Shown here: one piece after another, positions 45,771 through 49,137 of the stretch
Position numbering within the stretch: position 1 is the first letter of the stretch
How the letters are laid out: each line of letters starts with the position of its first letter
Assembly: GCA_025060325.1 (NCBI GenBank)
Contig: JANXBW010000013.1
Span: 1 to 64,000 of the forward strand
Source: Thermoguttaceae bacterium
GTDB lineage: Bacteria > Planctomycetota > Planctomycetia > Pirellulales > Thermoguttaceae
Direction of reading: 5' to 3'
Length of the DNA stretch: 64,000 bases
Notes under the pieces: generated by a model
The model's input: the letters and a program-made list of their open reading frames with translations, nothing else
What the model was told of the DNA's origin: nothing
Databases searched by the model: none
Made by a program: the position numbers and the translations under genes

Positions 45771-45798
45771 TTGACACCCGGGGGAGAAGCGGTACACT
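45771..45798 (+). promoter_or_regulatory. Sigma-70-type promoter of nrdJ
   Basis: A perfect -35 hexamer TTGACA (45771-45776), a 16-bp spacer and TACACT (45793-45798; four of six consensus bases) as -10. Predicted transcription start near 45805, just before the palindrome pair. Confidence 0.7.
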
Positions 45799-45805
45799 TA
45801 CCCGC

Positions 45806-45851
45806 CACAACATCTTGTGACTGCATCTTGCAAGGGATACAATATATTGTG
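45806..45851 (+). promoter_or_regulatory. Pair of NrdR-box-like palindromes
   Basis: Two dyads, CACAACATCTTGTG (45806-45819) and TACAATATATTGTG (45838-45851; core ACAATATATTGT perfectly symmetric). Their centres are 32 bp apart, three helical turns, the arrangement known for NrdR repressor box pairs before ribonucleotide reductase genes. They lie just downstream of the predicted promoter, so binding would block transcription. Confidence 0.7.
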
Positions 45852-46170
45852 GCTGGGCCGTCTGGGTTCCGTGGAACCTGCATCTTGACGTAGGAAAAAC
45901 CTTCGGGGAAACCGTACCAGGCGGGAAGTCGCCCTTGCAGCCGGTGCGGGATCGAGTCAGGTTATCGGCCAGAGGGAGTCCGCTCGGGCAATCGGTCCAA
46001 GGCCCGTCCACCAAGTAATTAAGGGTTGTAAGTGGGGGGTAAGACTCGTCGAGGGAAGGCCAGTACAGAGCAGCGTCGCGATCGATTTGTGATCGGTTGG
46101 CAAAATTAACGACAACTGGGGCTGCTTGTAAGTAAACGGAAGGTTTTTGCGCCAAATGGAGGAAAAGCAT
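45852..46170 (+). other. Long leader of nrdJ
   Basis: About 320 nt of untranslated leader between the NrdR-like boxes and the nrdJ start. I do not find the conserved segments of a cobalamin riboswitch or another known RNA. GGAGG eight bases before 46171 sets the start codon. Confidence 0.45.
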
Positions 46171-49137
46171 ATGGCCAATCGGATGGCGACAACCGGACGA
46201 AAACTCGTGATTGAACCGGTCTTTTGCCCGCCGGGAGTGACCGATCCGTTTGCCACGGTGGAATGGGAGGAGCGTACTGCCCAGATCAAGGATGATCGAG
46301 GACAGGTTGTCTTCGAGCAAACGGGGTGCGAATTTCCCAAATCGTGGAGTCAACTGGCCACCAATGTGGTGGCAAGTAAGTACTTTTACGGTGAGTTGGG
46401 GACACCTCAGCGCGAACGAAGTGTCCGCCAGCTCATCCACCGAGTCTGCCGAACCATTGCCGATTGGGGCATTGCCGACGGCTATTTTGCCTCCCCAGAG
46501 GACGGGGAGCGCTTCTACCGTGAGCTGGTTTGGCTTTGTCTTCATCAACACGCCTCGTTTAATTCCCCCGTTTGGTTCAATGTGGGACTTTATCATCAGT
46601 ACGGAGTAAAGGGCACCGCGTGCAATTGGGTTTGGGATCCGGTTACCCAGTCCGTTCGTCAACCGGAAAATCCTTATGAGCATCCTCAGGCTTCCGCCTG
46701 CTTTATCCAGAGCGTGCAGGACACGATGGAAGATATCATGGAACTTGCCCGGAGCGAGGCACTCCTGTTTAAGTTTGGCTCCGGCACAGGGACGGATCTG
46801 TCGACACTTCGCTCCATGAGGGAGAAGTTATCCGGCGGTGGTAAGCCGTCTGGTCCGCTCTCCTTTATGCGTGTTTATGACCAGATTGCTGCCGTGGTCA
46901 AAAGCGGGGGAAAAACCCGGCGAGCTGCCAAGATGCAGTCCCTTAAAGTCACTCATCCGGACATCTTGGAATTTATCGAGTGTAAGCGAAAAGAGGAGGA
47001 AAAGGCTAAGGCACTAATGGCCGCCGGCTATTCCCCGGAAGAGGCCTACAGCTCCGTGCACTTCCAGAATGCCAACCTATCGGTCCGGGTCACCGATGAA
47101 TTTATGGAAGCGGTCGTGGCGGATCGACCCTGGACCACCCGGTGGGTGACCGATCCCTCCAAGCCGGGTCCTACGTATTCAGCTCGCGAACTTTTCCACA
47201 AAATGGCGGAAAACGCGTGGGCCTGCGGGGATCCGGGGATTCAATACGATACGACCATCAACAAATGGCACACGTGTCCCAACTCCGGGCGAATTAACGC
47301 CTCTAATCCCTGCAGTGAATACATGTTTCTGGATGATTCGGCCTGCAACTTGGCCAGCTTAAACCTAATGAAGTTTCGGCGGGAGGATGGCAGGTTTGAT
47401 GCCGAGCGGTTTGCCGCCGCTTGCCGAATCATCTTTATCGCCCAAGAGATTCTTGTTGACCATGGGAGTTACCCCACGCCGAGAATTGCCCTGAATAGCC
47501 ACCGTTTCCGGCCGATCGGCTTGGGGTATTCCAATTTGGGAAGTCTGATTATGGCCTCGGGGCTGCCGTATGACTCCGATGAAGCTCGGGGACTTTGCGC
47601 GGTCATTACAGCGATTATGACCGGTGCTGCTTACCGCACCAGTACGGAGCTTGCGGCTGCTGTCGGGCCGTTTGAGGGCTTCGAAATAAACCGCGAGCCA
47701 ATGCTCCGCGTCATGGAGATGCATTGGCAGAAGGTCGAAGAGATCGAGCATGCTCCGGAGGAATTGAAGAACTTCGCGCGCAAGCTTTGGGACGAAGTTC
47801 TGGCCCACGGTCGGCGCTTTGGCTTCCGCAATGCTCAGGCTACCGTGTTGGCACCAACCGGCACGATCAGTTTCATGATGGACTGCGATACGACGGGAAT
47901 TGAGCCGGAACTTGCCCTTGTCAAATACAAATTCCTCGCTGGTGGGGGAACCTTCAAGATTGTCAACCAGACCGTGCCGCTTGCTTTAAAGGCGCTTGGA
48001 TACACGCCGGAGCAAATCAAAGAGATTGTTGCCTATGTGGAGCGGGAGGACGGGATTGAGGGAGCACCGCATCTTCGGCCGGAACATCTGCCAGTGTTCG
48101 ACTGTGCTTTTCCGCCGCCAAAGGGGACACGATGTATTCCCTGGCGGGCGCATTTACGAATGATGGCGGCTGCCCAGCCATTCCTTTCCGGGGCCATTTC
48201 AAAAACCATCAACATGCCTCGGGACGCCACAGTGGAGGATGTGGCCAACGCGTACATGGAAGGCTGGCGGCTTGGGCTTAAGGCGGTGGCCATTTACCGG
48301 GACGGGTCCAAAGGGTTTCAGGTGCTGGCCACCAAGAAAAAGGAGGAAGCGGAGAAAAAGTCAACGGAGCTTCCGCCCCCTCGCCGGGAGCGCTTGCCGG
48401 ACACCCGCCGCTCGATTACCCACAAGTTCTCCGTGGCCGGGCACGAAGGCTATATCACCGTGGGACTTTATCCAGACGGTCGCCCAGGTGAACTTTTTAT
48501 CACCATGGCTAAGGAAGGTAGCACCATCGGCGGCCTCATGGACTGCTTTGGCACGGCTGTCTCGATGAGTCTTCAGTACGGTGTTCCCTTGGAGGTTTAC
48601 GTCAACAAGTTTTCGTACACGCGGTTTGAGCCGTGGGGTTATACCAACAACCCGGACATCCGTGTCGCCACAAGCATTGTCGACTATATCTTCCGGTGGC
48701 TGGGGATCATGTTCCTCCCTGGGTATCGCGAACAGCTTCGGTCGCGAACGGGCGGGGGAGCCACGGCACCGACCCCTGGCGAAAAAACCACCTCCCCTGC
48801 CCCAGGCGGAGCGGCACCCGCTCCGACCGGAAGCCCCGAAACGGCCCAAACCTCCGCCCCCGTTCCGCGGACCTCGTCAGGGGAGCGCCCGGCGGCCGAG
48901 CTGCCCTCGGGCAATGGGGAATTCCGCGCTGCCGGCAAGAGTATCCCTGTGCCGCTATGGGATTATCCGGTTGAGACCTCGCCCCCGACGCGGGAAAACA
49001 TGCAAACGCTTGTGGGCGACGGTTTCCTTCGCTATCAAGACGATAACCCAATTTGCGACAACTGTGGAGCGATCACCCGGCGCGCTGGCAACTGCTTCCT
49101 CTGCGGTACCTGCGGCACAAGCATGGGGTGTTCCTAA
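46171..49137 (+). CDS. nrdJ: Adenosylcobalamin-dependent ribonucleotide reductase (class II)
   Basis: A 988-residue class II ribonucleotide reductase that makes deoxyribonucleotides with vitamin B12 and needs no oxygen. Features in order: ASFNSPVWFNVG and ASACFIQSVQDTMEDIME (substrate Cys), the active-site NPCSE with C381 and its Glu, LAPTGTISFMMDCDTTGIEP, the C-terminal domain after a Pro/Ala-rich linker (about residues 860-925), and the redox Cys-rich tail (CDNCGAIT ... CFLCGTCGTSMGC). The ATG at 46171 follows GGAGG by eight bases; a TTG at 46147 and an ATG at 46156 are rejected. Upstream are a sigma-70-type promoter and paired NrdR-like boxes. The tail is typical of the long NrdJ form. Confidence 0.97.
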   Translation: MANRMATTGRKLVIEPVFCPPGVTDPFATVEWEERTAQIKDDRGQVVFEQTGCEFPKSWSQLATNVVASKYFYGELGTPQRERSVRQLIHRVCRTIADWGIADGYFASPEDGERFYRELVWLCLHQHASFNSPVWFNVGLYHQYGVKGTACNWVWDPVTQSVRQPENPYEHPQASACFIQSVQDTMEDIMELARSEALLFKFGSGTGTDLSTLRSMREKLSGGGKPSGPLSFMRVYDQIAAVVKSGGKTRRAAKMQSLKVTHPDILEFIECKRKEEEKAKALMAAGYSPEEAYSSVHFQNANLSVRVTDEFMEAVVADRPWTTRWVTDPSKPGPTYSARELFHKMAENAWACGDPGIQYDTTINKWHTCPNSGRINASNPCSEYMFLDDSACNLASLNLMKFRREDGRFDAERFAAACRIIFIAQEILVDHGSYPTPRIALNSHRFRPIGLGYSNLGSLIMASGLPYDSDEARGLCAVITAIMTGAAYRTSTELAAAVGPFEGFEINREPMLRVMEMHWQKVEEIEHAPEELKNFARKLWDEVLAHGRRFGFRNAQATVLAPTGTISFMMDCDTTGIEPELALVKYKFLAGGGTFKIVNQTVPLALKALGYTPEQIKEIVAYVEREDGIEGAPHLRPEHLPVFDCAFPPPKGTRCIPWRAHLRMMAAAQPFLSGAISKTINMPRDATVEDVANAYMEGWRLGLKAVAIYRDGSKGFQVLATKKKEEAEKKSTELPPPRRERLPDTRRSITHKFSVAGHEGYITVGLYPDGRPGELFITMAKEGSTIGGLMDCFGTAVSMSLQYGVPLEVYVNKFSYTRFEPWGYTNNPDIRVATSIVDYIFRWLGIMFLPGYREQLRSRTGGGATAPTPGEKTTSPAPGGAAPAPTGSPETAQTSAPVPRTSSGERPAAELPSGNGEFRAAGKSIPVPLWDYPVETSPPTRENMQTLVGDGFLRYQDDNPICDNCGAITRRAGNCFLCGTCGTSMGCS

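Follow-up and report, generated by a model that had tools for sequence, protein, structure and literature searches.

The DNA considered here is a 64-kb window (the term refers to the whole stretch that was analysed) containing nrdJ, the gene for a class II RNR, together with the region upstream of it. The features of this region are as follows.

45771–45776, + strand: -35 element TTGACA (sequence and promoter scan)
45793–45798, + strand: -10 element TACACT, 16-bp spacer from the -35 element (sequence and promoter scan)
45805–45820, no strand assigned: putative NrdR box 1, CCACAACATCTTGTGA, core 45807–45818 (pattern and box-pair score); also the 5' arm of a predicted RNA hairpin
45821–45836, no strand assigned: inter-box spacer of 16 bp, the loop of the predicted hairpin; without GGGCATC, unlike many relatives
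45837–45852, no strand assigned: putative NrdR box 2, ATACAATATATTGTGG, core 45839–45850, a perfect palindrome (pattern and box-pair score); also the 3' arm of the predicted RNA hairpin
45853–46170, + strand: remaining nrdJ 5' leader, 318 nt; no Rfam match at gathering and no copy of the leader element of relatives
46171–49137, + strand: nrdJ, class II RNR, with a probable ATG at 46171 after GGAGGAA; the sole recognised RNR large subunit, with no ATP-cone found

Promoter, boxes, regulator and target

A preliminary description of this DNA, made from the letters alone, had placed at 45771–45851 a promoter, TTGACA-16-TACACT, followed at once by two palindromes with centres 32 bp apart, and this proved correct to the base, coordinates included. 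The promoter matches the consensus at 10 of 12 positions, and is one of three promoter-like sites in the 839 bp scanned (0.5 expected), the other two scoring 9/12. One of these two weaker sites, TTGTGA-17-TACAAT (45815–45843), overlaps the boxes, falling within the span of the pair. From sigma-70 geometry, transcription would start at about 45804–45807; with a start near 45805, the nrdJ leader would be about 365 nt long.

The core of box 1, ACAACATCTTGT (45807–45818), is an imperfect palindrome centred at 45812.5, while that of box 2, ACAATATATTGT (45839–45850), is a perfect one centred at 45844.5. The distance between the centres is thus 32 bp, and the pair sits at the nrdJ promoter, about 320 bp upstream of the probable ATG. 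The NrdR consensus is taken here to end in a final (t), that is, acaCwAtATaTwGtg(t). Both cores agree with the two-box NrdR consensus, the published form of which is acaCwAtATaTwGtg (PMC4009431). The NrdR operators of Escherichia coli, as described in PMC12176259, consist of two 16-bp boxes with 15–16 bp between them, which is equivalent to a centre distance of 31–32 bp. The boxes in the window have this 15–16 bp separation, and the claim that a 32-bp spacing marks paired NrdR boxes agrees with the E. coli gap.

Single boxes are weak evidence on their own, since three occur in the window with at most two mismatches, where 0.59 would be expected. The pair is far more distinctive. In a search restricted to the 32-bp spacing, the pattern ACANNATNNTGT-N20-ACANNATNNTGT with up to two mismatches had this single, mismatch-free occurrence in the 4.78-Mb draft genome, and the reversed control pattern did not occur at all. 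The preliminary description had proposed scanning the genome both for the same pair, which is therefore unique at this spacing, and for an nrdR gene. The latter was also found: a single full-length NrdR of 166 amino acids (L001, 1501–2001), which matches TIGR00244 with 193.8 bits (cut-off 124.65) and has a Zn-ribbon (PF22811) and an ATP-cone (PF03477). The gene sits on a different contig from nrdJ. This protein has, at the corresponding positions, the residues described in PMC9110341 as contacting DNA (R12, D15, R17, R26–R29 and R37).

The nrdJ open reading frame spans 46147–49137, with the likely start at 46171 behind GGAGGAA, as read from the sequence. Its product matches NF005122 (1373.5 bits, cut-off 859) and TIGR02504 (618.7 bits) and contains PF08471, PF02867 and TSCPD domains; it thus has both the barrel domain and the B12-dependent subfamily signature of a class II RNR. 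A Pfam search of the protein found no ATP-cone. PF02867 has a single match in the genome and the class III NRDD has none, making NrdJ the only RNR recognised by large-subunit and class III searches, a result that is not final because the draft genome is 95.57% complete.

Conservation of the box pair and of NrdR

Upstream regions of nrdJ were gathered from two sets of relatives. The first gave an nrdJ match in 56 of 60 genomes, from which 50 regions were used; the second gave a match in 172 of 197 genomes, from which 80 further regions, among the matches listed, were used along with search loci. After removal of 20 duplicates (by the last 250 nt) and one region that was too short, 152 of the 173 regions collected were scored. 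A box pair scoring at least 22 is present in 120 of them. The centre spacing in these is 31 bp in 86 regions and 32 bp in 34, in a scan that allowed 33 bp as well. A promoter of the form TTGA[CT]-16/17-TAnnnT, ending 5–16 nt before box 1, accompanies the pair in 115 of the 120 regions, compared to 0 of 600 control placements. The preliminary description had staked its reading on the recurrence of the palindromes upstream of nrdJ in close relatives. They are indeed there, both in the two same-genus genomes examined (L005 and L006) and in the 120 more widely sampled regions.

The other 32 regions score below 22, and several of these (families f8 and f16) appear by eye to keep a weaker pair behind the same promoter. 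In the distant Phycisphaerae and Lentisphaerae loci among these low scorers, no such pair behind a promoter of this form could be seen by eye. The exact pair pattern, with at most one mismatch, was found in only 6 of 60 genomes, the window's own included. This is partly because the outer half-site of box 1 differs in the order as a whole and because many pairs are spaced at 31 bp.

Some exact-pattern matches lie away from nrdJ. One pair without mismatches (L035, G051:C2:784596-784639) precedes a class I-like RNR match (786000–787460) by about 1.4 kb in a genome that also has nrdJ. One-mismatch NrdR-like pairs away from nrdJ were found in G023 (L038, G023:C36:18603-18646), which has no nrdJ match, in G032 (L036, G032:C75:39352-39395) and in G040 (L034, L039 and L040); these three sets are possible further NrdR targets.

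Does the regulator follow the boxes? An additional 40 nrdJ upstream regions were read from other families of the same class: 19 genomes of f22 and f24, and 21 of f21. In f22 and f24, the best pairs score 31.5–38.1, and 17 of the 19 beat all of their own spacing controls, with L219 and L228 just below; by eye, they mostly lie directly behind a -10-like TATA element. In f21, all of the best pairs fall under this range (21.0–27.2 in the 21 genomes, all with nrdJ), and 20 of the 21 are no better than their own controls; the last, L239, exceeds them by 0.3 and does not resemble a box pair. NrdR was found in 18 of the 19 f22 and f24 genomes. The exception, G293, has the pair and no NrdR match, with 99 of 143 candidates scored. 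In f21, NrdR was found in 1 of 21 genomes (G234, a short frame of 101 amino acids with 43.4 bits), several of the misses resting on 99 scored candidates. From the pair scores and NrdR counts in these families, boxes and regulator largely go together, G293 excepted, and NrdR is present in the window's genome and in all 20 genomes tested from its own order. Family f21 (G212, G216, G219 and others) keeps nrdJ despite the missing NrdR match in 20 of 21 genomes, with no recognisable boxes. Additional NrdR-type Zn-ribbon matches, weaker and in some cases below the cut-off, were seen in G024, G229, G213, G259, G256 and G099, and in G049 and G074 a second such match lies about 20 bp from the first.

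The most probable reading of 45771–45852, at a rough probability of 0.92, is that of an nrdJ promoter whose presumed transcription start is covered by an NrdR operator. It is well supported by these sequence comparisons that NrdR controls nrdJ: the nrdR gene, the conserved boxes and their joint absence with the regulator in f21 all uphold the proposal in the preliminary description that NrdR governs a B12-dependent reductase. Another palindrome-binding regulator would have in its favour the imperfect palindrome of box 1 and the departure of the order's outer box 1 half-site from the NrdR consensus, yet the consensus, the 31–32 bp spacing, the RNR target and the absence of nrdR along with the boxes in f21 all fit NrdR, leaving such a regulator very improbable. 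That the palindromes arose by chance in AT-rich sequence following a promoter, as the excess of single boxes in the window might suggest, is refuted by the positional conservation in relatives and by the genome-wide uniqueness of the pair at its spacing, with a control count of zero.

How would this operator work? In Streptomyces coelicolor, NrdR binds strongly to the nrdRJ (class II) promoter when loaded with dATP and ATP (or ADP), and a tetramer of the protein bends the DNA while bound to both boxes, which are separated by about three turns (PMC9110341). By analogy with the NrdR structures, high dATP would give a tetramer loaded with dATP and ATP. Its two Zn-ribbon pairs would hold the two boxes across three helical turns and bend the DNA sharply. 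Clamped on the start site, NrdR would keep RNA polymerase from initiation or escape. At low dATP, the ATP-loaded protein would release the operator and nrdJ would be transcribed. That NrdR senses dNTPs in this lineage is likewise presumed from what is known of the family.

Since NrdJ lacks a recognisable ATP-cone and is the only recognised RNR, NrdR would be the main dATP/ATP brake on DNA precursors, and in the window's genome transcriptional dATP sensing may take the place of feedback on the enzyme. A single repressor would then govern, through a B12-dependent enzyme, the supply of DNA precursors in this large planctomycete order. A class II target is not in itself new, for NrdR on an nrdJ promoter is already established in Streptomyces (PMC9110341), and given this precedent the finding is less novel than the preliminary description implied.

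A possible RNA role of the operator in relatives

The boxes lie in the region that is probably transcribed, and in relatives the operator also looks like part of an RNA structure, a feature missed by the preliminary description. Evidence for this comes in the first place from covariation between the two boxes, for which 105 distinct box pairs, from 112 scoring at least 26, were compared to raw shuffles without correction for relatedness. When box 1 and box 2 are aligned as the arms of a hairpin, the mean z is 2.26 over 11 testable column pairs, compared to at most 0.67 (absolute) in 16 other registers, and none of 100,000 random column matchings reached the observed sum of 25.0. Symmetric positions within a box do not covary, except for the central pair 8–9 (z 5.0 in box 1 and 2.6 in box 2). 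Among non-Watson–Crick combinations, again uncorrected for relatedness, A-C is depleted (50, with 67.3 expected), as are the others (292, with 357.0 expected), while G-U stands at expectation (219, with 224.0 expected). The retention of G-U alongside the loss of A-C is what would be expected of a sense-strand RNA and not of a protein dyad. In folding calculations, native hairpins gave -15.1 kcal/mol and those with a swapped box 2 gave -12.6. In the neighbouring family f22 (18 genomes), the register test was weak (z 2.0). With a tree-based null (117 distinct pairs scoring at least 22, on a rough tree), no column pair reached E<0.05; the best hairpin pairs had E values of 3.4 and 14.6, ranking 3 and 6 of 3655.

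A second kind of evidence lies in the spacer. Exact GGGCATC is present between the boxes in 33 of 132 regions (0.09 in shuffled spacers), and 50 of the 132 have a stretch that differs from it by at most one base (2.01 shuffled). In many relatives, this motif is complementary to a GATGCCC near the nrdJ ribosome-binding site. Among the 120 regions with a pair, 52 have both the spacer motif and GATGCC or GACGCC in the leader, 20 have the leader motif only, 1 has the spacer motif only and 47 have neither; the leader string used for these counts takes in the first nrdJ codons, so a few leader matches are coding. Pairing between loop and leader was examined in 59 distinct spacer/leader combinations in which the leader motif follows its hairpin. 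(The box score threshold here was 16, thus including L113 and L114, which are absent from the sets scoring at least 22 and at least 26.) The exact GGGCATC/GATGCCC pair accounts for 27 of these combinations, and in two lineages both sides have been replaced in a compensatory manner: L082 (GAGCATC/GATGCTC), and L113 with L114 (GGGTATC/GATACCC). The remaining changed pairs are G-U in 11 cases, A-C in 5 and other mismatches in 8, and 13 of the 59 combinations have a non-matching spacer, which differs from GGGCATC at more than two bases.

The leader motif is preceded by a second hairpin, (A)GTRTAC-N4-GTAYAC(T). In an alignment of 37 sequences, selected by length from 51 that had all been picked by likeness to the palindrome, 88.4% of cells are paired (83.5 in shuffles), cells changed on both sides number 18 (8.5 in shuffles) and column pairs with such a change number 3 (2.7 in shuffles). 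The hairpin followed by GGnAnGGATGCCC is seen in the nrdJ leaders of L106, L110, L016, L023, L082, L113 and other Pirellulales, and by eye the distance from the conserved element to the start codon is often 25–45 nt, and greater in some leaders. Read as DNA, the palindrome GTAC-N4-GTAC is also similar to the LexA box of cyanobacteria. In 81 sequences selected for their likeness, G-U combinations outnumber A-C by 48 to 13, an excess that favours RNA, with an SOS operator as a less favoured alternative.

The pattern GGGCATCN{2,18}TRTACNNNNGTAYA occurs once each in 23 of 197 genomes, with 0 control matches, and their coordinates place all 23 occurrences ahead of the nrdJ match, at a distance of about 300 bp or less. 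A covariance model, R1, gave one match each in 28 of 58 genomes, 26 of them just upstream of nrdJ; the other two are in G078, for which the nrdJ position was not at hand, and in G095, which has no nrdJ match. As some of these genomes supplied the sequences for the model, matches in them are to be expected. In the searches made, the leader element is specific to nrdJ. The open-licence literature searched, as far as its text was available, describes neither an nrdJ leader RNA nor work on a planctomycete NrdR.

The window itself lacks this element. R1 has three matches in the 64 kb, with E values of 0.7–1.2 and none near nrdJ, and none in the window's genome at E≤0.05. Of the arrangement seen in relatives, just the operator hairpin is predicted here, with a folding energy of -11.1 kcal/mol (z -1.8) that 9 of 200 shuffles equalled, and the full leader folds no better than shuffles (z -0.56). 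A window-specific pseudoknot between the spacer TGCAAGGG and an exact 8-nt complement, CCCTTGCA, in the leader (shuffle P 0.031) was considered and discarded, because in the 47 motif-less genomes the mean match length is at chance level (5.60, compared to 5.47 in shuffles, sd 0.13).

Together, the position of the boxes in the presumed transcribed region, their apparent pairing in a 5' hairpin and the loop–leader pairing make it probable that in many relatives the operator is also read as RNA, and suggest an unannotated leader RNA interlocked with the NrdR operator. In its full form, a proposal to which we would give even odds, the Pirellulales operator is double-coded, being bound by NrdR at the DNA level and forming, in the nrdJ mRNA, a hairpin at the very 5' end. 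The loop of this hairpin, GGGCAUC, would pair with GAUGCCC, typically over 100–200 nt, behind the second hairpin and just upstream of the ribosome-binding site. This pseudoknotted, nrdJ-specific leader, with no match in Rfam 15, would add a translational or ligand-dependent switch to repression by dATP, and would have been reduced to the operator hairpin in the window's genus.

A less likely explanation, though not a remote one, is that the covariation reflects the two-fold symmetry of the NrdR tetramer and not RNA pairing, the outer half-sites being read alike, and the inner ones alike, so that a drift in the preference of the protein alters both together. DNA and tetramer do share a two-fold symmetry (PMC9110341), the covarying columns are exactly the dyad-related ones and the tree-based null yields no significant single pair. 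However, symmetry of this kind should deplete G-T and A-C alike, whereas in the counts uncorrected for relatedness only A-C falls below expectation of the two; within a box, the central pair is the only symmetric one to covary; and the spacer–leader pairing, with its two compensatory replacements, is left unexplained. If the RNA layer of the double-coding proposal is true, a single sequence would be under selection as operator and RNA helix at once, which is unusual, and the leader RNA would be a new one, for which the obvious candidate ligand, if there is any, would be adenosylcobalamin. It is this RNA role of the operator in relatives that could be new; the window shows only the first half of the arrangement.

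Comparison with known systems

Cobalamin (B12) riboswitches are cis-acting leader RNAs near B12-related genes, and the nrdJ leader element of relatives bears a superficial likeness to them in its position. However, neither the window nor the loci of relatives that were searched match the cobalamin family in Rfam. The window has no Rfam 15 match at gathering, and its 501-bp leader region has two matches, both non-cobalamin and well below their cut-offs. In relatives, there was no Rfam 15 match at gathering in 20 loci, and none up to E=1 in 18 loci. A known riboswitch or other Rfam family in the nrdJ leader was rejected on these searches.

As an operator, the pair is like those of E. coli nrdAB, nrdHIEF and nrdDG, which also have two 16-bp boxes with a 15–16 bp gap, overlapping the polymerase site; unlike the case here, the NrdR targets described for E. 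coli are class I and class III, and none is class II (PMC12176259). A parallel with a class II target is S. coelicolor nrdRJ, as described in PMC9110341. There, nrdR precedes nrdJ in a single operon, whereas here the two genes are on separate contigs; a class I RNR is also present there, while here nrdJ is the only RNR recognised; and, unlike in S. coelicolor, the window's boxes are just downstream of the -10 element, in a long leader. Shared by both are a class II (nrdJ) promoter bearing a pair of boxes with about three turns between them, and an NrdR with a Zn-ribbon, an ATP-cone and the same DNA-contact residues (PMC9110341).
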